A stretch of DNA of 26,710 nucleotides. It comes from a virus. A model generated the notes under the pieces. That model ran no database searches. It was not told the DNA's origin and worked only from the letters and a program-made list of their open reading frames with translations. The position numbers and the translations under genes were made by a program. The stretch covers positions 1 through 26,710 of IMG/VR virus record IMGVR_UViG_3300031696_000046; one strand, 5' to 3'. Shown here one piece after another: positions 10,604 to 26,109 of this stretch. Position 1 is the first letter of the stretch; each line of letters opens with the position of its first letter.

Positions 10604-12589
10604 ATGCCCCTCAAAATTGACAAGAAGAAAGACTCCCTACTAGAAGAATACGCAATCGGGATGTTAAAAGATTTTTATTTAAATGATAATGAAAAGAGTC
10701 CTCAAGAGGGGTTTGCAAGAGCATCACAAGCATGGAGTAAGTACCGAGATGAAATGGACGATGAGTTAGCTCAACGTCTATACAATTACGTCTCTAATAA
10801 ATGGTTCATGTTCGCATCACCTGTACTATCGAACGCACCCAACGGAACAAAGAAAGGCAAAGGTATGCCTATCAGTTGTTTCCTTACCTATGTACCCGAC
10901 ACACTAGAAGGTCTGATTGGACACTCATCCGAGTTAAGATGGTTATCCGTCATGGGTGGTGGTGTAGGTGGTCATTGGTCTGATGTAAGAACTGTATCTG
11001 ATATTGCGCCTGGCCCAATGCCGTTCCTTCATACTGTTGACGCAGATATGATTGCGTACCGTCAAGGTAAGACTCGCAAGGGTTCCTATGCGGCATACAT
11101 GGATGTGAGTCATCCAGACATCATCGAATTCCTAAATATGCGTGTACCTACGGGTGACGTACAACGTAAAGCATTGAACCTACACAATGCTATCAATATT
11201 ACTGATGAGTTCATGGAAGCGGTTACTAGTGGTAACACGTTCGACCTACGTGACCCCAAGGACGGTTCTGTCAAAGAATCTGTCAATGCACGTAAGTTAT
11301 GGGAACGTATCCTAGAGACACGATTCCGTACTGGTGAACCGTACATGAACTTCATTGACACCGCAAACGCATCGTTACCACAACCACTAAAAGATAAAGG
11401 ATTGAAAATACATGGCTCTAATCTATGCAACGAGATTCATTTACCCACAGATGCACAACGCACTGCCGTTTGTTGTCTGTCTTCTCTAAATCTGGAATAC
11501 TACGATGACTGGAAAGATACCAGTATTGTTCGTGACATTATCCGTATGTTGGATAACGTCTTGCAGTACTTCATTGACAATGCACCCGACACAATCGAAC
11601 GTGCGAGGTTTAGTGCCTCCCGTGAACGTAGTATCGGACTTGGTGCAATGGGATTCCACTCCCTATTACAGAAACATGGAGTGGCATGGGAATCAGAAGC
11701 AGCACGAGACATCAACAAAGTTGTGTTCCGTCATATTCAAGACGAAGCTATCAAAGAAACTAAACTACTCGCAACCGAACGTGGAGAGTATCCAGACGGA
11801 GAAGGGAGTGGTAGACGCAATTCTCACCTTCTTGCAATCGCTCCAAATGCTTCAAGTGGTGTTATCCTGTCAACCTCTCCCTCTATAGAACCACTGAAGG
11901 CGAATGCGTACACCCACAGAACACGTGCGGGTTCATTCCTTGTAAAGAATAAATACCTTGACCAGTTACTTACCGATAAGGGTCAGAACAACGAGTCCAA
12001 CTGGACATCAATTATCACTAACAAAGGTTCGGTACAACATCTACCATTCTTCACAGAAGGTGAGAAGGCAATCTTTAGGACTGCCGCAGAGTTGGACATG
12101 AACTGGGTTGTTACCCATGCGGCAGAGAGACAACCGTTTATCTGTCAGGGTCAATCAGTTAACTTGTTCTTCCCGTCTGGTGCGGACAAGGCATATGTAA
12201 ATAAGGTACACATCAAAGCGTGGAAGGAAGGACTGAAAGGATTGTACTATCTACGCACAGAAGCAAAACAACGTGCAGAGAATGTATCTGAAAAGGTAGA
12301 ACGTGTGGCACTTGCTGGTGATATGCGTAGTATAGTATACTCCAAGAAAGACTGTCCTTTCTGTTCGATGGCAATGGAAGAACTGAAGTTGAGAGGAATT
12401 CCTTACGATAAGATTGACCTCAAAGAAATTGGTAAGACTGCCAAAGAAGTAACAGGACGAGATGTTAAGACCGTCCCCCAAATTTACATTGAAGGTGAGT
12501 ATGTAGGTGGGTATGAAAACTTAATGATATATTTAAACAAACCAACAAAAACAGACGCAGACGATGAATGTCGTGCGTGTGAGGGATAA
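10604..12589 (+). CDS. nrdA: Class I ribonucleotide reductase large subunit with inserted glutaredoxin domain
   Basis: 661 residues; reduces ribonucleotides to deoxyribonucleotides for phage DNA synthesis. Cys92 (PISCFL) and Cys290 or Cys291 correspond to the redox pair, and Cys275 with Glu277 (NLCNE) to the thiyl-radical site. Tyr548-Tyr549 (LYYLRT) correspond to the radical-transfer tyrosines. The N-terminal ATP-cone is absent: the usual Cys is only 92 residues in, against about 225 in E. coli NrdA. The allosteric dATP off-switch is therefore probably missing. Residues 575-645 are a glutaredoxin domain (CPFC at 584-587, TVP at 623-625, GGYENL). It sits before the C-terminal Cys656/Cys659 tail that normally re-reduces the active site. 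This puts the reductant in the same chain. The SD (GGAAAG) is close to the ATG, and nrdB follows after 3 bases. Confidence 0.95.
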   Translation: MPLKIDKKKDSLLEEYAIGMLKDFYLNDNEKSPQEGFARASQAWSKYRDEMDDELAQRLYNYVSNKWFMFASPVLSNAPNGTKKGKGMPISCFLTYVPDTLEGLIGHSSELRWLSVMGGGVGGHWSDVRTVSDIAPGPMPFLHTVDADMIAYRQGKTRKGSYAAYMDVSHPDIIEFLNMRVPTGDVQRKALNLHNAINITDEFMEAVTSGNTFDLRDPKDGSVKESVNARKLWERILETRFRTGEPYMNFIDTANASLPQPLKDKGLKIHGSNLCNEIHLPTDAQRTAVCCLSSLNLEYYDDWKDTSIVRDIIRMLDNVLQYFIDNAPDTIERARFSASRERSIGLGAMGFHSLLQKHGVAWESEAARDINKVVFRHIQDEAIKETKLLATERGEYPDGEGSGRRNSHLLAIAPNASSGVILSTSPSIEPLKANAYTHRTRAGSFLVKNKYLDQLLTDKGQNNESNWTSIITNKGSVQHLPFFTEGEKAIFRTAAELDMNWVVTHAAERQPFICQGQSVNLFFPSGADKAYVNKVHIKAWKEGLKGLYYLRTEAKQRAENVSEKVERVALAGDMRSIVYSKKDCPFCSMAMEELKLRGIPYDKIDLKEIGKTAKEVTGRDVKTVPQIYIEGEYVGGYENLMIYLNKPTKTDADDECRACEG

Positions 12590-13720: not shown

Positions 13721-14125
13721 ATGTGGATATATGAAGATAAAGAGTTTGAACCAGAAGACGAGTTCTTGGAGGAATACCAAGGATTCGTTTACTGCTTGAC
13801 TGAGTTAAGCACTGGTAAAAAGTATATTGGTAAGAAGTTCTTCTGGAAACCCAAGATACTCCCTGTTACTAAAACAAGAAAAAGACGTAAACGAACACGA
13901 GTCCAATCGGACTGGCGTAAGTACTATGGTTCATCGGAAAGGGTAAAAACCCTTGTTGAAGGGGGCCAGGACTTCAGGAGAGAAGTTCTCAGACTATGCC
14001 GCACCAAAGGTGACTGTTCGTACTATGAAGCTAAACTACAGTTCCAATATGATGTTCTATTGAGTGACGAATATTATAATGAATTTATAGGTTGTAAAAT
14101 CCATGCAAAACATATTAAATCGTGA
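13721..14125 (+). CDS. GIY-YIG-like nuclease fold protein
   Basis: 134 residues. Residues 20-40 (GFVYCLTELSTGKKYIGKKF) contain VYC and YIG, spaced like the GIY and YIG strands. YYGSS follows at 68-72, and Glu103 in YYEAKLQ is a candidate metal-binding glutamate. This resembles single-domain GIY-YIG proteins common in T4-like phages. A basic linker (KTRKRRKRTR) could contact DNA. There is no separate DNA-recognition domain, so a homing endonuclease is less likely than a stand-alone nuclease or a non-catalytic derivative. No Shine-Dalgarno is obvious. The end overlaps the adenylating-enzyme gene by 23 bases. Confidence 0.65.
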   Translation: MWIYEDKEFEPEDEFLEEYQGFVYCLTELSTGKKYIGKKFFWKPKILPVTKTRKRRKRTRVQSDWRKYYGSSERVKTLVEGGQDFRREVLRLCRTKGDCSYYEAKLQFQYDVLLSDEYYNEFIGCKIHAKHIKS

Positions 14126-15332
14126 TATAATTGGTGGGTCTCTAGGCATCATCTATGATGACCATGGTAGGGAAGAGATAGACCTAGCGATAGACCGAGT
14201 AAAGAGTCTGTTGAGTAATGTTGGTGTCAATAAGGGCGACCTAGTCACAATCGCTATTATCGTAGTTGACATTAATCATATCGCTTCTATCTTTGCGTGT
14301 GCTGAGTTAGGACTGAGAATCTTTATCTTAGATAGTCCTGCGACCAAAGAATCACTACCTTTCACCAAGCTTGCCTTGCATGGGCCCTCTGACTACTACA
14401 TCTACAGTACCCAAGAAGACACTACACACATATACAACGGTCTCCATGATGAGATGTTGGGACGTTATGGTGGTCTTGGTATTGACGTGATGGGAGACGC
14501 AATTTATTCTTCAAACTTCCATAAGGTGGAAGTATTGCCCTCAGACCCATTCTTAGTGAGTTCCACTTCAGGAACAACTGGCGCATCTAGACCAATCACG
14601 TTTTCACACCAAGAAGTCTATGATATATCCAAACGTAACATTGACGTGTTTTGGTTCGGTGAGGACGCAAAGGTTATTCACTCCAGAAATTTGCATCACG
14701 CATCCGCAATGTTGACTCATCTATTACCAGCTTTGATGAATGCATACTCACACAGTTCATTTGCGATTGGTCACGACCTGAGTCATGATGAAGATGTTGA
14801 TTTGATGCGAGGTCTGAAAGACTTGCAATGGGTTCCACCATCTAATATAATGATACCCAACAAAGAAGAACTCTATAATTTCCTAGAGACCTTTGCGGGG
14901 CCATTCAAGAGAACGGTCAACATCAATATGTGTGGATTTGTACTGGACGAGGAGTTTGTTGACCTTGCGAGAGAATACAATGTTTGTTTTCAGTCACATT
15001 ACGGTAGTATTGATACCGCTATCCCATTATTTATAAACCGCATTGGTGCGGACAGTACAATCGTACCCAATTCTTTGGGAGTACTATGTGACGACTTTTA
15101 CACAATATCCCTTGAGGATGGACGTATGAAGGTGGAATGCCCTCTGTGGGACGAACCAAGGTATATGGACGATGAACTGGAACTAGTTGATGGTCAATAC
15201 GTTATACTTAGTAAGAGAGAGAATGTCCTAGACATACCAGATGATTTTGATATGTCTCCATTCTTTCAAGATACTAAAATCAATTACGAACAATTAAGGG
15301 GACATTTAAATGTTATTACTAAACGGGTGTAG
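14103..15332 (+). CDS. ANL-superfamily adenylate-forming enzyme
   Basis: 409 residues. Residues 154-164 (STSGTTGASRP) match the ATP-binding A3 motif of acyl-CoA synthetase / AMP-ligase enzymes (SGTTGxPK). The usual final Lys is replaced by Arg-Pro. FQSHYGSIDTA (296-306) matches the A5 motif YGxTE-like region, and LVDGQYVILSKRENVLD (361-377) matches the A7/A8 hinge. The usual C-terminal lid (over 100 residues, including the A10 lysine) is mostly missing, since only about 30 residues follow the hinge. The enzyme may therefore form an acyl-AMP without full acyl-CoA transfer, or need a partner. The substrate is unknown. It overlaps both neighbours by 23 bases and is followed by an SGNH-like protein and a decayed paralogue, which suggests one pathway. 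A GIY-YIG gene precedes it. Confidence 0.75.
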   Translation: MQNILNRDIIGGSLGIIYDDHGREEIDLAIDRVKSLLSNVGVNKGDLVTIAIIVVDINHIASIFACAELGLRIFILDSPATKESLPFTKLALHGPSDYYIYSTQEDTTHIYNGLHDEMLGRYGGLGIDVMGDAIYSSNFHKVEVLPSDPFLVSSTSGTTGASRPITFSHQEVYDISKRNIDVFWFGEDAKVIHSRNLHHASAMLTHLLPALMNAYSHSSFAIGHDLSHDEDVDLMRGLKDLQWVPPSNIMIPNKEELYNFLETFAGPFKRTVNINMCGFVLDEEFVDLAREYNVCFQSHYGSIDTAIPLFINRIGADSTIVPNSLGVLCDDFYTISLEDGRMKVECPLWDEPRYMDDELELVDGQYVILSKRENVLDIPDDFDMSPFFQDTKINYEQLRGHLNVITKRV

Positions 15333-16125
15333 TTTCGTATGGGGTGACGAACTCGAAGGTTTCGATACCAACCCAACAACACATTGGCCTCATACATTTG
15401 GCCACCAACTTGCGGAGAAACTAGACATTGATTATGATAACATTGCTGCGTGTGGTAACTGCAATCAAAAAATATTTCGAGACACGATAGACTACTTGAC
15501 TACAAAAGACGTACCGTCACACATGGTGATATTGTGGTCAGACCCCATTCGAAAAGAAACGTTACTTGAAGTCACTGAAGAAGACGAAAAAAGTATGCTC
15601 AAGGTTCCTCGTTCTATATCTATGACACAGTGGCACGAAAATCGATTCCAAGACCTTGAACTCTCTATGTCACCACGTATTGTTCAAGAATTTTCTAACC
15701 ACCATATATTCAATGAGGTCAAGACCTTTAAACGTGATAGAAGAACGGTTGACGTATACCTATCTACTTTTTGTACAGGGATGACCCATCAATTATCACT
15801 GATGTTGGCGATGCAGACTTTATGTGACAGTATGAATATTAAGTTGGTGCAGGGTATATTCCATAGGAATGCTCGAATTGAACTGGCCAAATACCTAACA
15901 AGGATTGAGAGACAGAAGGAAACTAGTCAACAGGTAAAGGATTGGAGACTCTGGGTCTTTAGTGTACTAGAAAAACTTCGACCTGAGTGTCAGGTTGGAT
16001 TGAGTGAGGGTGATGATAAAACCCTAAGAGACTTTCAGGAACCGAGACCACTTAAAAAACAAGGTCATCCAGACGAACAAGCGCACAAAGCATTCACTGA
16101 GTATATTGTGGAGTTATTCCCGTGA
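15310..16125 (+). CDS. SGNH-hydrolase-like protein
   Basis: 271 residues. It starts with GCSFVWGDEL (residues 6-15), the block I pattern of SGNH/GDSL-type esterases, with Ser8 as candidate nucleophile. ACGNCNQ (47-53) fits block III (Gly49, Asn52). The end has GHPDEQAH (252-259), where Asp255 and His259 could complete the site, as in related phage proteins that end in a GHPxxxxH pattern. SGNH proteins cleave or transfer acyl groups such as acetyl on sugars. SD AAGGGG lies about 7 bases before the ATG. Between two acyl-activating folds, this could transfer or edit the acyl group, but no substrate is visible. A GTG start of the next gene overlaps its end by 4 bases. Confidence 0.65.
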   Translation: MLLLNGCSFVWGDELEGFDTNPTTHWPHTFGHQLAEKLDIDYDNIAACGNCNQKIFRDTIDYLTTKDVPSHMVILWSDPIRKETLLEVTEEDEKSMLKVPRSISMTQWHENRFQDLELSMSPRIVQEFSNHHIFNEVKTFKRDRRTVDVYLSTFCTGMTHQLSLMLAMQTLCDSMNIKLVQGIFHRNARIELAKYLTRIERQKETSQQVKDWRLWVFSVLEKLRPECQVGLSEGDDKTLRDFQEPRPLKKQGHPDEQAHKAFTEYIVELFP

Positions 16126-17039
16126 TTATAGACCGCAACATAATCAATAAAGACCTGTTTATTAATGACATGAATCAGGAAGAGTTCTTTATATTGATAA
16201 ACAGATTTAAACATATGTTATTACAGAGTGGGGTGCGGAAAGGAGAGGTCACCACAATTGTTATCCCCAAAGCAGGGCCACTTCAATTTGCATCTATGTT
16301 TGCGTGTTTGGAATTGGGATTACCTCTATGGCAGAATTCTGAAGCACTTTGGGACATGGATGATAAGACGATTGAGTTTATCGACAACATGAGTCCCGAA
16401 GACAAATCAAAACTACCCGTCAATAGAATCGCATTCTTTACTGAAAGTAGTATAGAGTTTCACAAAAAATTCTTCAATAACTGGGACTTGTACTGGAATA
16501 AACTAATAATATCGTGTCGCAATTATTTGCGTGTTCAAGACCTACCCAACGAGTACGATGACATACACCCTTGGTCAGTAGATGAAACTGACACAGCTTT
16601 TATTCAAAGTCAAAACTTCTGGAAACAAGAAGTTAACCCCTTCACTTACATATCTCACAAAGAGTCTATCGAACACTCACTACCATTTGTTGAAACTCAC
16701 CGAAACAAACGTGTAGGTATTACAATGTCCTACCACCACTACAATGCGTGGGAGAGGAACATACTACCATCCTTTATGTCATCCAAAGTCATCATACCTT
16801 TGGCAATCATCTCACCCGACTTATACGGTCATCGTATAGCAACTCAGTTCTTCACGAAGAGAGATATATCTAAGTTATTGGATGTTGATATTATGTACTC
16901 TGCCGAATCTGATGCTATGGAGATGGCCTTTAAGACCATGTCTAAGTTAGAAAAGGACTTCTCTACTCCACTGACAGTGATTCTCCATGACAATCAAGAC
17001 GTTATCTCTACTAAATTAAATGTAAATTATTTGAAATAA
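16122..17039 (+). CDS. Degenerate ANL-like paralogue lacking the ATP-binding loop
   Basis: 305 residues, GTG start overlapping the previous stop. Residues 34-70 (SGVRKG, then ASMFACLELGLPL) align with residues 40-72 of the upstream ANL enzyme (VGVNKG, then ASIFACAELGLRI). The region 159-181 (AFIQSQNFWKQEVNPFTYISH) aligns with the A3 loop region of that enzyme (FLVSSTSGTTGASRPITFSH), but SGTTG is replaced by a bulky, unrelated sequence. It therefore should not bind ATP in the usual way. The frame is intact, which argues for a retained non-catalytic role rather than decay. The C-terminal half is diverged and about 100 residues shorter. Possible roles are a binding or scaffold partner for the upstream enzyme. 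The gene ends just before the first repeated early promoter. Confidence 0.6.
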   Translation: MIIDRNIINKDLFINDMNQEEFFILINRFKHMLLQSGVRKGEVTTIVIPKAGPLQFASMFACLELGLPLWQNSEALWDMDDKTIEFIDNMSPEDKSKLPVNRIAFFTESSIEFHKKFFNNWDLYWNKLIISCRNYLRVQDLPNEYDDIHPWSVDETDTAFIQSQNFWKQEVNPFTYISHKESIEHSLPFVETHRNKRVGITMSYHHYNAWERNILPSFMSSKVIIPLAIISPDLYGHRIATQFFTKRDISKLLDVDIMYSAESDAMEMAFKTMSKLEKDFSTPLTVILHDNQDVISTKLNVNYLK

Positions 17040-17042
17040 TGC

Positions 17043-17071
17043 TTGACAAAGGGTGCTGTTGTTGTTATAAT
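17043..17071 (+). promoter_or_regulatory. Early-type sigma70 promoter cassette, copy 1
   Basis: TTGACA (17043-17048), a 17-base spacer and TATAAT (17066-17071). It lies 33 bases before the ATG at 17104. The 10-base palindrome TAAGTACTTA (17071-17080) covers the expected start site. Three related cassettes are at 17295, 17586 and 21777. Confidence 0.8.
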
Positions 17072-17294: not shown

Positions 17295-17323
17295 TTGACA
17301 AACGTTGCTGTTGTTGTTATAAT
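17295..17323 (+). promoter_or_regulatory. Early-type sigma70 promoter cassette, copy 2
   Basis: TTGACA (17295-17300), a 17-base spacer and TATAAT (17318-17323), followed by TAAGTATATAA. It lies 30 bases before the ATG at 17354. The surrounding bases (GCTTGACAAA ... TTGTTGTTATAATAAGTA) match copy 1, but the leader after that differs. Confidence 0.8.
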
Positions 17324-17585: not shown

Positions 17586-17614
17586 TTGCCAAACGCTGCC
17601 CTTGTTGTTATAAT
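17586..17614 (+). promoter_or_regulatory. Early-type sigma70 promoter cassette, copy 3
   Basis: TTGCCA (17586-17591), a 17-base spacer and TATAAT (17609-17614). The TAAGTACTTA palindrome recurs at 17614-17623. It differs from copy 1 by one base in the -35 box (C for A), which could lower strength. It serves the gene at 17652. Confidence 0.8.
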
Positions 17615-20487: not shown

Positions 20488-20952
20488 ATGAAATTAAGTA
20501 AAAACTTCACACTCAAAGAGTTCACAAAGTCTATGACTGCGACTCGATTGGGTATCGACAACACACCTGAAGGTGAACATCTAATAGCGGCACAACACCT
20601 GTTCACTCAAGTCGTTCAACACGTTAGAGACCATTTCGGTATCACCCGTATCAATTCGGGTTACCGTTCCCCTGCACTGAACGAAGCTGTAGGTGGGTCT
20701 TCACGGTCACAACATTGTAAGGGCCAAGCAGTTGACTTGGAATGTGATAAGGCGGATAACCTTGTTGTTGCACAATGGATTAGGGACAACCTAGAGTTTG
20801 ACCAAATCATCTCTGAGTTCTATACTGACGGTGACCCATCATCTGGTTGGGTTCATGTGACATATGTGAGTCCTGAAGAGAACCGTAAGAAGTGTTTGAC
20901 TGCACAACGTGTGGACGGTAAGACACAGTATTCGGTTGGTCTGCCTGAGTGA
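20488..20952 (+). CDS. M15-family peptidase, probable endolysin
   Basis: 154 residues. His76, Asp83 and His123 form the zinc-binding triad (SQHCKGQAVD, then GWVHVTY). INSGYRSPALN (about residues 55-65) is the conserved substrate-binding turn. This is the M15_3 family, D-Ala-D-Ala-type carboxypeptidases and endopeptidases that cut peptidoglycan cross-links. In phages they act as endolysins. No signal peptide is present, so export needs the holin. Overlap with the next GTG start (GTGA) couples it to a glycosyltransferase gene. The holin is 10 kb upstream in the window, which is odd for a lysis cassette but common in T4-like phages. Confidence 0.85.
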   Translation: MKLSKNFTLKEFTKSMTATRLGIDNTPEGEHLIAAQHLFTQVVQHVRDHFGITRINSGYRSPALNEAVGGSSRSQHCKGQAVDLECDKADNLVVAQWIRDNLEFDQIISEFYTDGDPSSGWVHVTYVSPEENRKKCLTAQRVDGKTQYSVGLPE

Positions 20953-21773
20953 ATCTAATATATCAGTACATGATTACCAACGAGGAGACCGAAAAACGTC
21001 CTCCCGTCCCTCAATACAAAGAGGGTAGTCGTTCAGAACTTTATCGTGTAACTGGTGACCTGTCGGCAGAATCCTTTCGAATCTATGCTGATAAGATTGG
21101 TTGCAAACATCACTACTCAACTAACCAAGTATACACCAAAGGTAAGACAGGGTCAACTGTTTTGTTGTTCGAATGTCTACGTATGATATATGACCCAATG
21201 TACGATGAGTACGATAAGGTTGCATTCATTGATTCGGATATCATCTGTAACACAGAAGAGAATATCTTTGATGAGACCAATGGTTACGATGTGACAGGTG
21301 TCTTTGAGTCTGAGATTAAGACTGCAAAGGGTGGTGGATACAATACTTGGGACTATAGTGACAAGACTAAGAACGAACTAATAACCAAGTATAAACGTAA
21401 TGGTATACCAATTGTACCCACTGAACCTCCGTATGAACCGTCTTGCGTCACTACCTTCAATACTGGAGTGTTGGTATGGACTAAGGAAGCACGTCTGAAA
21501 GCACGTGCCGAGTTCGACTCATGGTATGATTATATGGTTGATGGAGACAAACACGGAGACCACTTCTGGTTGAACAACGACCAACCGTTCATCTCTGGAC
21601 AGTTAACCAAACACGGATTTAAGATACAGAGTATTGACCAGAAATGGAACGATACTCCTACTCACTGGCCTGATGACCGTGGGTATGACATGAACTTCCT
21701 CCACTACACTGGGGGTGGCAATAAGGTTGTTATGCTGGATGATTGGAAGAAAGGTAAATTTAAATATCTTTGA
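20949..21773 (+). CDS. GT8-like glycosyltransferase
   Basis: 274 residues. AFIDSDI (93-98, Asp95 and Asp97) is the DxD metal/nucleotide-sugar site. FNTGVLVWTKEARL and the later HYTGGGNK fit the GT8/glycogenin-type fold (FNxGV, HxxGxxKPW). It probably moves a sugar from a nucleotide-sugar donor to a surface, virion or base acceptor. The GTG start overlaps the endolysin stop. Its N-terminus, MNLIYQYM, resembles the next gene's first codons at the window end (MNRMIYQV), which supports the GTG. An in-frame ATG 21 bases later is the alternative. It stands first in a block of sugar and carbamoyl enzymes. The acceptor is unknown. Confidence 0.7.
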   Translation: MNLIYQYMITNEETEKRPPVPQYKEGSRSELYRVTGDLSAESFRIYADKIGCKHHYSTNQVYTKGKTGSTVLLFECLRMIYDPMYDEYDKVAFIDSDIICNTEENIFDETNGYDVTGVFESEIKTAKGGGYNTWDYSDKTKNELITKYKRNGIPIVPTEPPYEPSCVTTFNTGVLVWTKEARLKARAEFDSWYDYMVDGDKHGDHFWLNNDQPFISGQLTKHGFKIQSIDQKWNDTPTHWPDDRGYDMNFLHYTGGGNKVVMLDDWKKGKFKYL

Positions 21774-22441: not shown

Positions 22442-22468
22442 ACCTACATGAAAAAAAGATATGTAGGT
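22442..22468 (+). promoter_or_regulatory. Start-codon hairpin of the carbamoyltransferase gene
   Basis: ACCTACAT (22442-22449) and ATGTAGGT (22461-22468) are perfect inverted arms around an 11-base A-rich loop. The start codon (22448-22450) lies in the left arm and at the loop edge. No Shine-Dalgarno is present. The structure could hold the start codon closed unless the upstream gene is being translated. Confidence 0.4.
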
Positions 22469-24001
22469 TATTCAGAGTTTTATCACGATGGCGGTCTCGC
22501 CATCATTCAAGATGACGGTACGGTTGAGTTCGCATCTCAGGCGGAACGTTATAGTGGCATTAAGAATGACGATAGAATTCCCGATGAGATGTGGCATTTT
22601 ATCACCAAGGAAGACCACGTCACTTTCTACGAAGATTACGAACTACGTAGAACTAAGATGGGCGGAATCAGAACCTTTGGTATGGGTCAAATAACGGGAT
22701 TCGCTGGCCCGAAGAAAGAATTCACTGTTAAACAAATTGAATTATCTGAGTTAAAAACCCCAATGTATGGTCAGTTGTCATTCGATGATTTTAATATGCA
22801 TCACGAAAGTCATTGTGCTCTAGCATTCTTTACCCGTCCTTGGGAATCCAAAGAAGATACTGTGATGGTATCCGTTGATGGTTCGGGTGAACTCGAATCA
22901 CTCTCTATCAAAGACCACAATTTCAATACACTACACACCATTCAATGGCCTCAATCCTTGGGTACAATCTATGGTGGTGTCACTGCCGCACTCGGATATA
23001 AAGTACTAAGAGACGAATACATCATCATGGGACTTGCATCCTACGGTGAGGTTAATGACGAATTATATAATATACTACACAACTGTTACTACTGGTTTGA
23101 AAGTGACCACGGTAAAAATGTACGAATGAATGTAGAGTTCGCAGGGTATTGTCTTGCAGAAAGTCAACTGTCCGAAAAGTATGCTGAGTATGAAGACAGG
23201 TTCGCAAAGTTTATAAAAGGAAGTGATATTACTCCCGAAGACGCATCTGCTACTGTGCAGAAGTTCTTTGAAGTTGAAGTGATGAAGATAATGACTATTG
23301 CACGACAGTATGGTAGTAAGTTAGTGTACGGTGGTGGATGTGCTCAGAACGTTACTGCGAACACCTTAATCCGTGAACTGTTTGATGAGATGCATATCGC
23401 AATCGCACCAAGTGATTCAGGTAACGCATTAGGATGTGCCGCATACTCGTGGCATAAGGCAACAGGGGGAACACACCTAAAGTGGTCTCCTTACCTCGGA
23501 CACAACATAGACCGTGACATAGACCCTAAAGAGGTCGCACAATACCTTGTAGATAACAAAATCTGTGGTGTTGCGAATGGTCGTGCCGAATATGGCCCAC
23601 GTGCTTTAGGTAATCGTTCATTACTCGCAGACGTTCGTTCCGATATCAATGACACTGTTAACAAGATTAAACGTAGACAGAAGTTCCGACCCTTTGCTCC
23701 GGCAATTCTATCCGAACACGCAGACGAATACTTCTCTGGCCCAATGAATGAGTATATGCAATTCACCGCAGTTGCTAAACACGACTACTCTTCGGTCACA
23801 CACACTGACGGAACCGCAAGAGTTCAGTTAGTAAAACCAGATTGCAAATCAGTCTTACGTCAGATACTAGAAGAGTATTACAAATTAACGGGTGTTCCGA
23901 TGTTACTAAATACATCTTTAAACATCCGTAATAAACCCATGGTCAATACCGTAGAAGACGCTATTGAGTGGGAAAACAAATACAACGTAAAGGTATTCTA
24001 A
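22448..24001 (+). CDS. Carbamoyltransferase (NodU/CmcH/TobZ family)
   Basis: 517 residues. The fold landmarks are present: the N-terminal GYSEFYHDGGLAII, HHESHCALAFF (118-128, the metal/His cluster), VDGSGE (143-148), MGLASYG (194-200), GGCAQNVTANTL, AEYGPRALGNRSLLADVR and NTSLNIRNKPMV. The two-domain chain seems complete. The family makes an O-carbamoyl group on sugars or antibiotics using carbamoyl phosphate and ATP. In this phage, a sugar on a surface, virion or modified base is the likely target. It lies between a phosphatase and glycosyltransferases. Its ATG is in the left arm of an 8-bp hairpin (22442-22468) and no ribosome site is seen, so translation may be controlled. The stop overlaps the next ATG (TAATG). 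Confidence 0.85.
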   Translation: MKKRYVGYSEFYHDGGLAIIQDDGTVEFASQAERYSGIKNDDRIPDEMWHFITKEDHVTFYEDYELRRTKMGGIRTFGMGQITGFAGPKKEFTVKQIELSELKTPMYGQLSFDDFNMHHESHCALAFFTRPWESKEDTVMVSVDGSGELESLSIKDHNFNTLHTIQWPQSLGTIYGGVTAALGYKVLRDEYIIMGLASYGEVNDELYNILHNCYYWFESDHGKNVRMNVEFAGYCLAESQLSEKYAEYEDRFAKFIKGSDITPEDASATVQKFFEVEVMKIMTIARQYGSKLVYGGGCAQNVTANTLIRELFDEMHIAIAPSDSGNALGCAAYSWHKATGGTHLKWSPYLGHNIDRDIDPKEVAQYLVDNKICGVANGRAEYGPRALGNRSLLADVRSDINDTVNKIKRRQKFRPFAPAILSEHADEYFSGPMNEYMQFTAVAKHDYSSVTHTDGTARVQLVKPDCKSVLRQILEEYYKLTGVPMLLNTSLNIRNKPMVNTVEDAIEWENKYNVKVF

Positions 24002-24324: not shown

Positions 24325-25127
24325 TGGAAAAAGTCAGATGGCGTGGGACATGGGGTGTCGGTGATTTTATGCACTCACTCAATGTCTGTCACAACTATTG
24401 TTTCTATAATAACACCAAGGTTAACTTGGAGATGCATTGGCAACATGATGAAGATTACCGACATCATCCCGATGACCCCGAAACTATTATAGAGAGAATG
24501 AGTTGGATACATGACCAGTATTATCGACAAGATGATGTTGTCGTTACACACGTATTTAATTCTGACCTATTTCAATCTGGGAACACAAACCCTGACAAAC
24601 AGAAAGACCGATTCTATTTCGACTCTAACGCACACGACCCATCTAGTGCGCCACCTAATGACTGGGTATTCAAACCTGAAGTATATCTACCTAAGAAAAA
24701 GAAGATAGTCATCTGGACACCACATTATAACTCAGAACCTCCAAGAAGATGGAAAAGGTTCTTGACAAAAGATGATTGGGCTGGTATAATAAAGCTATTG
24801 CGCTGGAAGGGATGGATACTAGTAGAATTAACTTATAGAACTCCTGTAAGAGATGCGTTCAAACAAATACAAGAAGCTGACTTCATCTTCTGTTATGATG
24901 GTATGTGGCATTACATTGCAAGAAACTTTAGTAAAGCTATGTTCATTCCATCTTGGGAAGGTATTACTAAGTATAATACTCCAATGGCAATGACTAGACC
25001 CAATAGAGAAGGCGTGTTAGATTTCATACAAGATGGTGGTGAGGGTTTCGAACCCAACCTAACTAGAATGAAAGACAAATCAAATGACTATATAAAAATG
25101 TTGCAGGAACGATATTATGACAAATGA
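24324..25127 (+). CDS. GT-B-like glycosyltransferase-related protein
   Basis: 267 residues. The N-terminus WGVGDFMHSLNVCHNYCF, then VNLEMHW, resembles the opening of heptosyltransferase or ADP-heptose-type (GT-B) folds, which read GDxxxxLpal. The C-terminal half (IVIWTPHYNSEPPRRWKR, then WILVELTYRTPVRDAFKQIQ, then ADFIFCYDGMWHYIARNFSK) resembles the donor-binding half. I see no certain catalytic residue. This type is common in marine phage gene clusters. It starts at a TAATG overlap. Inside it, at 24762-24790, is a perfect sigma70 promoter. It overlaps the radical SAM gene by 11 bases. Confidence 0.5.
   Translation: MEKVRWRGTWGVGDFMHSLNVCHNYCFYNNTKVNLEMHWQHDEDYRHHPDDPETIIERMSWIHDQYYRQDDVVVTHVFNSDLFQSGNTNPDKQKDRFYFDSNAHDPSSAPPNDWVFKPEVYLPKKKKIVIWTPHYNSEPPRRWKRFLTKDDWAGIIKLLRWKGWILVELTYRTPVRDAFKQIQEADFIFCYDGMWHYIARNFSKAMFIPSWEGITKYNTPMAMTRPNREGVLDFIQDGGEGFEPNLTRMKDKSNDYIKMLQERYYDK
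24762..24790 (+). promoter_or_regulatory. Consensus sigma70 promoter inside the GT-B-like gene
   Basis: TTGACA (24762-24767), a 17-base spacer and TATAAT (24785-24790), a perfect consensus match inside a coding region. The TTGACAAAA and TATAATAA ends match the repeated early cassettes. It points at the radical SAM and GT25 genes, whose starts are about 330 and 1,300 bases downstream. Confidence 0.45.
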
Positions 25128-26109
25128 ACCAGAACTAAAACCATTATTCATTGACAGAGCAGTCATAGAGATTGTCGGTGGGTGTAACTATAGTTGTACT
25201 ATGTGTCCCCAAGACTTACGGGTAGGTGGAAGAAGTAAGAACTTCAGACGCATGATGAAAATTGATGAGTTCGAAGGTTATGTTGCTGATTGTGCCAAAC
25301 ATGGTGTGAGAGTAATTAACCTAGATGGTTCGGGTGAAGCCACGTTACAGAAGAAACTACCAGAATATATTAAAATTGTAAAGAAGTATGGTGCTAAGTG
25401 TTTTATCTTCTCTAATGGTTTTAAGATGGAAGGCAAGTACATGAGAGATTGTGTTGATGCTGGACTAGACTTCTATAGGTTCTCCTTTGTTGGTTCTAAT
25501 GAAGAAGACTATACCAAGTGGATGTACAATGCCATAGGTGGACACTACGCACAGATAAGACGTAACATCGAAGAGATGGTAACGTATGTTAATGAAACTA
25601 ATTCCGAATGTGTCATCTCAACCTACCATCTCATTACAGACAACGATAACATCGACAATGAACTTGCAGAGTACAAACAGATAGTTGAAGAACTAGGTGT
25701 TAAGACTGAAATATGGAAGATGCATAATTGGTCTGGTGTACAAGATATCTCGGAAACGGGTATTCGTCACGGTGAGATTAAAACTTGTGGTCGCCCATTC
25801 TCTCCTGATGTTGTCATTAGAGCGGGTGGTCTTGACGGTAAGAAGGGTGCAGTGCATCCTTGTTGTCAAGTATTGGGACGTGATGATGAAGCTGTACTAG
25901 GTCATTGTTCAGAGAATACTATCGAAGAAATATGGAATGGCCCAGAGTACACGGAACTACGTGAACAACACACTACTGGTAACTACCCAGATTTCTGTAA
26001 GGGATGTGATTTCTTAATCGATGACCCCGAAGTATTAGTCTACACTAATCATGAACGTGACTTAATGAAGATGCACGGAACAGAGTTCGACTTAAATGAT
26101 TACCGATAA
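25117..26109 (+). CDS. Radical SAM enzyme with SPASM-like C-terminus
   Basis: 330 residues. Cys23, Cys27 and Cys30 (CNYSCTMC) form the CxxxCxxC site for the 4Fe-4S cluster and S-adenosylmethionine. GSGEATL (71-77) is the GGE-like SAM-binding motif. The C-terminal region has Cys224, Cys249, Cys250, Cys264, Cys294 and Cys297, with GHCSENTIEEIWNGPEY, which fits a SPASM/twitch domain holding extra iron-sulfur clusters. Such enzymes modify peptides, sugars or cofactors. No precursor peptide is visible nearby, and the neighbours are sugar enzymes, so a sugar or nucleotide-sugar substrate is plausible. The ATG (AGGAA upstream) overlaps the previous gene by 11 bases. Confidence 0.85.
   Translation: MTNEPELKPLFIDRAVIEIVGGCNYSCTMCPQDLRVGGRSKNFRRMMKIDEFEGYVADCAKHGVRVINLDGSGEATLQKKLPEYIKIVKKYGAKCFIFSNGFKMEGKYMRDCVDAGLDFYRFSFVGSNEEDYTKWMYNAIGGHYAQIRRNIEEMVTYVNETNSECVISTYHLITDNDNIDNELAEYKQIVEELGVKTEIWKMHNWSGVQDISETGIRHGEIKTCGRPFSPDVVIRAGGLDGKKGAVHPCCQVLGRDDEAVLGHCSENTIEEIWNGPEYTELREQHTTGNYPDFCKGCDFLIDDPEVLVYTNHERDLMKMHGTEFDLNDYR

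Follow-up and report, generated by a model that had tools for sequence, protein, structure and literature searches.

Why should a phage carry, in overlapping genes, an adenylate-forming enzyme that has lost nearly all of its C-terminal lid and a paralog that has lost its catalytic motifs? The question is raised by a virus record of 26,710 bases (IMG/VR record IMGVR_UViG_3300031696_000046), whose whole length we analyzed and refer to as the window. Three genes follow one another there and code for an ANL protein (ANL1), an SGNH-like protein and a second ANL protein, the partner (ANL2). Their coordinates, open frames and overlapping junctions are as had been claimed in an earlier account of this DNA made from its letters alone (hereafter the sequence-only reading). 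The overlaps measure 23 nucleotides between segE and ANL1 (14103-14125), 23 between ANL1 and the SGNH-like gene (15310-15332) and 4 between the latter and ANL2 (GTGA at 16122-16125). The answer that we favor, at a probability of about 0.45, is a two-component adenylating system made up of a conserved catalytic ANL1 and an exchangeable pseudoenzyme partner.

Predicted folds and catalytic motifs of ANL1 and ANL2

ANL1 matches PF00501 with an E value of 5.2e-8 and 32.5 bits, against a curated cut-off of 29.9. Its AlphaFold model, built on 25 relatives (predicted local distance difference test score, pLDDT, 83.5; predicted template modeling score, pTM, 0.88), superposes on the N-terminal domains of ANL enzymes, best on 3t5c_A (Z 28.2, 340 residues, root mean square deviation, rmsd, 3.4), and in structure comparison the fold resembles coenzyme A (CoA) ligases and A domains. 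The ATP loop and the YGS-type A5 motif that the sequence-only reading had pointed out are both in place (Table 1). In the ANL1 family A3 reads SSTSGTTG and A5 reads YGSID; A3, A5 and A10 are present together in all 21 distinct members, and the A3, A5, A7 and A10 residues are retained among relatives as distant as 44% identity.

The C-terminal part of ANL1 is much reduced. Compared by alignment with the full-length phage ANLs of the L064 type (L and G numbers are our handles for virus records), it lacks about 75 lid residues, and the chain picks up after this gap at QDTKINYEQLRGHL, aligned to the final FTGIKLDNQLIRDYF of those proteins, which is their A10 region. The near absence of a lid had been correctly recognized before, and to it we can add that the A10 lysine motif (K392) was kept. 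The hinge motif listed in the same reading turned out to be weak: the A8 region, SKRENV, is degenerate throughout the family, so that of a lid domain with its A8 hinge ANL1 has the A10 motif alone. A stand-alone lid acting in trans (PF13193) was not found, by a search that likewise failed to pick up the divergent lid present in full-length phage ANLs. The end of the ANL1 model aligns with the lid end in some full-length structures, for example 4fut (ATP-bound MatB) and 1md9 (DhbE), with ranges to residues 502 and 533, and with the lid start in others; these alignments fit an A10 motif placed at its usual site, as support and not as proof. In ANL enzymes, adenylation relies on A10 and thioester formation on A8. 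Because A10 is kept while A8 is degenerate, ANL1 looks, from its motif pattern, fit for the formation of acyl-adenylates and not for the usual thioesterification by a swinging lid.

ANL2 is recognized by sequence only through a sub-threshold PF00501 match at residues 21-67. Its AlphaFold model (pLDDT 89.8, pTM 0.90) is matched to ANL enzymes by Foldseek with a probability of 1.00 and superposes on 1ult_B residues 18-322 with a Z of 21.5 (266 aligned, rmsd 3.3). The chain covers the first two ANL subdomains and stops ahead of the one that holds A5, A7 and A8. Its A3 region reads QSQNFWKQEVNPF, without an A3 motif, and the whole A5-A10 region is gone. Given these two losses, ANL2 derives, by its confidently predicted structure, from an ANL protein but lacks what catalysis requires; it is a descendant of the fold and not an ANL enzyme. 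This agrees with the sequence-only reading, which had called gene 3 a motif-less ANL paralog; predicted each on its own, both proteins give the ANL fold.

None of the 21 short partners retains A3, whose motif survives in part (HTSGYSGDD) in the L104 partner. There is precedent for ANL folds without a known enzymatic role, since the fold matches include ANL-like chains of big assemblies, the trypanosome mitoribosome (6hix_BC) and the Euglena respiratory supercomplex (8iuf_E1).

When both proteins are set against the ANL superfamily (acyl-CoA synthetases, nonribosomal peptide synthetase adenylation domains and luciferases; PF00501), ANL1 is alike in fold and in the positions of A3, A5, A7 and A10 but differs in its missing lid body, its degenerate A8 and the change of the A5 Glu to Asp. 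ANL2 is alike in the fold of the first two subdomains but has none of the catalytic motifs and neither third subdomain nor lid, and the two proteins come as a pair. The full-length phage ANLs (L064-L074 type, about 505 residues) are also phage-borne, are 26% identical to ANL1 and share its N-terminal and A3 elements, but they have a complete lid and the usual A5 Glu and occupy another genomic site. No motif-less partner was found in the records of those that carry A3, A5 and a complete lid (G008, G047-G049), the second ANL match in G049 being a second piece of the same gene. In L064 (6332-7843), L073 (6986-8524) and their relatives in the L064-L074 set, the full-length ANL lies beside two proteins that by eye resemble radical SAM/SPASM enzymes, with tail-fibre-like genes near; L073 also has SGNH-like and carbamoyltransferase-like genes in the vicinity.

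Pairing, divergence and exchange of the partner

About 60 IMG/VR contigs contain ANL1. Where its surroundings were examined, it lies directly 3' of segE, or of a partner that follows segE, and usually before PhoH where the contig continues. Pairing was surveyed by searching virus records with a profile built from ANL1 and the full-length proteins related to it, which gave 48 ANL1-bearing records (the window, 11 and 36 others). They are mostly fragments and include many near-copies, amounting to about 20 distinct lineages. Exactly one further ANL paralog is present in 40 of the 48, and the eight without a partner (G017, G018, G021, G029, G034, G051-G053) are short records that stop ahead of the site where their relatives have it. 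As to the converse, the partners come from ANL1 contigs, and the segE survey turned up none without ANL1 except in L246, a contig that ends inside the partner.

The partner was found in five positions: after the SGNH-like gene, directly after ANL1, directly before ANL1, 8-9 kb upstream, and about 5 kb downstream in the opposite orientation, the last being a longer, non-orthologous form. The sequence-only reading had proposed a search for the same trio in other phage genomes; co-occurrence was indeed seen and the ANL1-partner pair generalizes, but the exact layout of the trio is one of these five arrangements. In L005 (3988-5445) and L006 (3937-5445), and also in L077 and L078, a motif-less partner bears a C-terminal methyltransferase domain (Methyltransf_24, E 2e-4), the partner of L005 and L006 being the one directly before ANL1. 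A possible fatty acid desaturase beside the L214 partner, noticed by eye from an HRAIAHP motif, has no Pfam match and is not claimed here.

Searches outside these contigs gave little. Neither ANL1 and ANL2 nor the L064 full-length ANL had a tblastn match in 50,697 public phage records, a pattern scan with ANL1 of 84,980 bacterial and archaeal genomes found no relative, and PHROGs gave no useful match.

In a tree of 50 proteins, limited by its long branches, the 21 short partners form one clade (100/100), far from ANL1. The L104 group carries a longer, non-orthologous, motif-poor ANL in place of the short partner, and this protein groups with the motif-poor ANLs of a ThyX-like locus (L175, L182); a single clade for all partners, the L104 type included, was rejected by the approximately unbiased test (p 0.01). 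These motif-poor ANLs (483 residues, and 472 in the relative at L104:13338-14753, the second ANL of its group) differ from the short partners in being of full ANL length and in forming a separate clade. At the ThyX-like locus (L175:4030-6753, L182:4096-6753) the 483-residue ANL, without a phosphate-binding loop, precedes an SGNH relative by 0.5 kb, in UvsX/helicase/ThyX-like surroundings, and these fragment records contain no ANL1.

Partners diverge more than ANL1 does, under purifying selection: their pairwise ratios of nonsynonymous to synonymous substitution rates (dN/dS) are 0.09-0.23, in pairs with dS of 0.3-1.2. On these ratios and on the intact frames of many relatives, the ANL2 frame is judged not to be a product of chance. 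The two genes have also parted company between phages. ANL1 of the window is 93% identical to that of L004 and the partner 26%; with L043 the partner is 97% identical and ANL1 72%. Correlations between ANL1 and partner distances were low once a backbone protein was taken into account (partial Mantel r of 0.12 with p 0.12 when NrdB is controlled for, and of 0.005 with p 0.41 when SegE is).

The SGNH-like gene and the cassette site

The assignment of gene 2 as SGNH-like has fair support in its sequence. DUF6071 is matched by 14 of 16 relatives (best E 9e-10), the window protein itself being below the Pfam cut-off, and a GDSL match was obtained with one relative only (E 0.03). Ser8 (GCSF, or GDSF in tandem paralogs) is invariant in the 16 aligned relatives and provides the G-x-S nucleophile of block I. 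His253 (GHPD) is equally invariant, but no Asp stands three residues ahead of it, where the Asp-x-x-His of block V would have its catalytic Asp. In L147 (5202-6765), L150 (5192-6759) and their relatives, two such paralogs stand in tandem, a GDSF copy ahead of a GCSF copy, and a glycosyltransferase-like gene comes next.

The sequence-only reading had joined an active ANL enzyme, an inactive partner and an SGNH-like hydrolase into one system. For the ANL pair this idea is upheld by fold, motif census and co-occurrence, but the SGNH-like protein had to be rejected as an obligatory member: it is missing from many ANL1 records, and members of its family are frequent in phage contigs where no ANL was detected nearby, sometimes as a tandem pair. 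A functional link to ANL proteins, though not an obligatory one, is plausible, because the locus of L175 and L182 provides a second association of an SGNH relative with a motif-poor ANL.

The cassette (14103-17039) is accessory, since relatives that share segE and have no ANL1 run from segE almost straight into the promoter-like sequence at its right border. These phages (L243-L245, L247), with SegE 89-94% identical, also lack the partner and the SGNH-like gene, and where their sequence was viewed about 35-50 bases separate segE from the promoter at this empty site. The interior of the cassette contains no perfect match to the promoter.

Table 1. Features of the cassette and its borders, in window coordinates
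Feature	Position	Strand	Remarks
segE-type GIY-YIG endonuclease gene	13721..14125	+	PF19835, E 3.7e-34; left cassette border; occurs with or without the cassette
ANL1 (gene 1)	14103..15332	+	409 residues; adenylate-forming enzyme by motifs and fold; N-terminal core complete, lid cut down to the A10 lysine motif
A3 phosphate-binding loop SSTSGTTGASRP, ANL1 residues 153-164	14559..14594	+	from sequence; SSTSG invariant across the family
A5 motif HYGSID, ANL1 residues 299-304	14997..15014	+	usual Glu replaced by invariant Asp304
Asp357 of ANL1	15171..15173	+	aligns with the ribose-binding Asp of A7; invariant in 13 of 13, near-invariant once full-length ANLs are added
A10-like motif QDTKINYEQLRG, ANL1 residues 389-400	15267..15302	+	invariant Lys392; sole lid remnant; aligns with lid end FTGIKLDNQLIR of full-length phage ANLs
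SGNH-like gene (gene 2)	15310..16125	+	271 residues; DUF6071-like
ANL2, partner (gene 3)	16122..17039	+	305 residues; ANL core without catalytic motifs, A5-A8 subdomain or lid
Perfect TTGACA-N17-TATAAT promoter-like sequence	17043..17071	+	directly 3' of the ANL2 stop; right cassette border

This promoter-like sequence is the first of three that are nearly identical (17043-17071, 17295-17323 and 17586-17614; TTGACA or TTGCCA, 17 nucleotides, TATAAT), spaced by about 250-290 bases and each followed by a small gene. With its NrdA, NrdB, segE-type endonuclease and PhoH genes, the window has the pattern of marine T4-like phages, and by NrdB the nearest public genomes are phage C48C1 (80%) and Methylophilales phage Melnitz (71%), both listed under Kyanoviridae. 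NrdA (10604-12589) has by eye an apparent C-terminal glutaredoxin domain with a CPFC motif; in L012 (2511-4492; L083:3511-5492) the NrdA frame is broken into two open reading frames within one contig. Farther along the window, a weak glycosyltransferase-8 match (20949-21773), a NolO-like carbamoyltransferase (22448-24001) and a radical SAM/SPASM protein (25117-26109) lie in one stretch, suggesting a second modification cluster. A link of the cassette to these carbamoyltransferase and radical SAM genes was considered and set aside: they are several kb off, the carbamoyltransferase is present in 10 of 13 records, and no tie was found.

Explanations for the ANL pair

If the pair forms a two-component system, ANL1 would be the catalytic subunit, binding ATP and a carboxylic acid and making an acyl-adenylate with the residues of A3, A5 and A7 and with the lysine kept from A10. 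Because the rest of the lid and A8 are gone, the standard thioesterification by lid rotation, on CoA or a carrier protein, is unlikely for ANL1, and for that reason the acyl (or adenosine monophosphate) group would probably be handed directly to an acceptor. ANL2 would be a pseudoenzyme derived from an ANL core, unable to adenylate and a constant companion of ANL1; its likeliest role is that of an exchangeable recognition subunit, with ANL1, the acceptor or both as binding partners. In phages that have it, the SGNH-like protein would pass the acyl group on or take it off. Such a system would acylate a phage or a host molecule; no target was found, and the carrier protein PF00550 was not detected in 13 records, which are fragmentary, and a host carrier could serve. 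Rather doubtful, in our opinion, is the fuller version in which interchangeable pseudo-ANL specificity subunits would allow one conserved, lid-minimized ANL to modify different phage or host targets in different hosts.

Some observations weigh against a two-component system. The change of the A5 Glu to Asp and the loss of the lid body may lower or even abolish the activity of ANL1. In 13 records the partner lies 5-9 kb from ANL1, so that joint production is not required, and the records are largely fragmentary. Moreover, once the phage backbone is allowed for, the sequences give no sign of tight co-evolution at an ANL1-partner interface, and it was for lack of this residual correlation that a tightly co-evolved ANL1-ANL2 heterodimer was dropped in favor of an exchangeable subunit. 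Coupled presence together with uncoupled sequence suggests that the catalytic chain is conserved and its recognition chain can be exchanged, or else that both proteins act on one pathway without close contact; we lean toward the former.

The same combination of coupled presence and uncoupled sequence also speaks for a decoy. The partner would then be a motif-less core that, working by itself, targets an ANL enzyme of the host or what that enzyme makes (a host acyl-CoA synthetase might be bound or blocked, for example), and it would be inherited together with ANL1 as both serve the same host pathway. Their separate locations in several lineages and the fast divergence of the partner, as in host-facing proteins, point the same way. 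Nevertheless, we hold a decoy to be unlikely: every ANL1 record that allows the test has exactly one partner, and no partner was found without ANL1 bar the contig that ends inside it, which is a stricter rule than shared selection alone predicts. Somewhat less probable still is a role of ANL1 as a common auxiliary metabolic gene, in which it would boost a host pathway as an acyl-CoA or acyl-AMP ligase and its paralog would be a structural subunit of no special meaning. Its PF00501 membership, its similarity in fold to CoA ligases and A domains, and the empty sites of sister phages would all be in keeping with this, but all 21 members have lost A8 and most of the lid, the parts on which CoA ligases rely to make the thioester; no close bacterial relative came out of the pattern scan, and no carrier protein was detected in the 13 fragmentary records.

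That both proteins are non-enzymatic scaffolds of ANL fold, as the ANL-like subunits of the mitoribosome and the respiratory supercomplex appear to be, seems improbable. The presence of those structural chains among the fold matches, the A5 substitution and the loss of the lid in ANL1 would suit scaffolds, but the catalytic residues that ANL1 keeps down to 44% identity are hard to explain without catalysis. Least credible of all is an accidental co-occurrence of unrelated passengers at a hot spot beside a homing endonuclease gene: segE does border the site, and ANL1, the SGNH-like gene and the partner are reshuffled there, but the pairing persists when the partner occupies a separate locus 5-9 kb off, and where the site has no ANL1 the phage has no partner either.

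We are thus left with the two-component system as our preferred explanation, and among known systems the bacterial lux operon offers a lead. LuxE, an acyl-protein synthetase, is an adenylating, acyl-handling enzyme whose gene lies beside that of an acyl-handling hydrolase or transferase; we set it beside the cassette by description only. To our knowledge LuxE has no motif-less paralog, and no lux reductase gene was seen with the cassette. A lid-minimized ANL with a kept A10, steadily paired with a motif-less core and exchanging that partner, is not described in the open-access literature searched, nor did we find there any phage system with the layout seen in the window, as the sequence-only reading had supposed. 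The parts themselves belong to known superfamilies; their combination appears to be undescribed.

As the ANL1/ANL2 pair was not found in the public phage records searched, such a system would otherwise go unseen. An ANL enzyme typically consists of one chain and works through a swinging lid. If our explanation is true, the cassette would be a testable case of an adenylating enzyme split between a catalytic chain and a pseudoenzyme chain, and the uncoupled swapping of partners, which points to a role in specificity, would tie the system to the competition between phages and their hosts.

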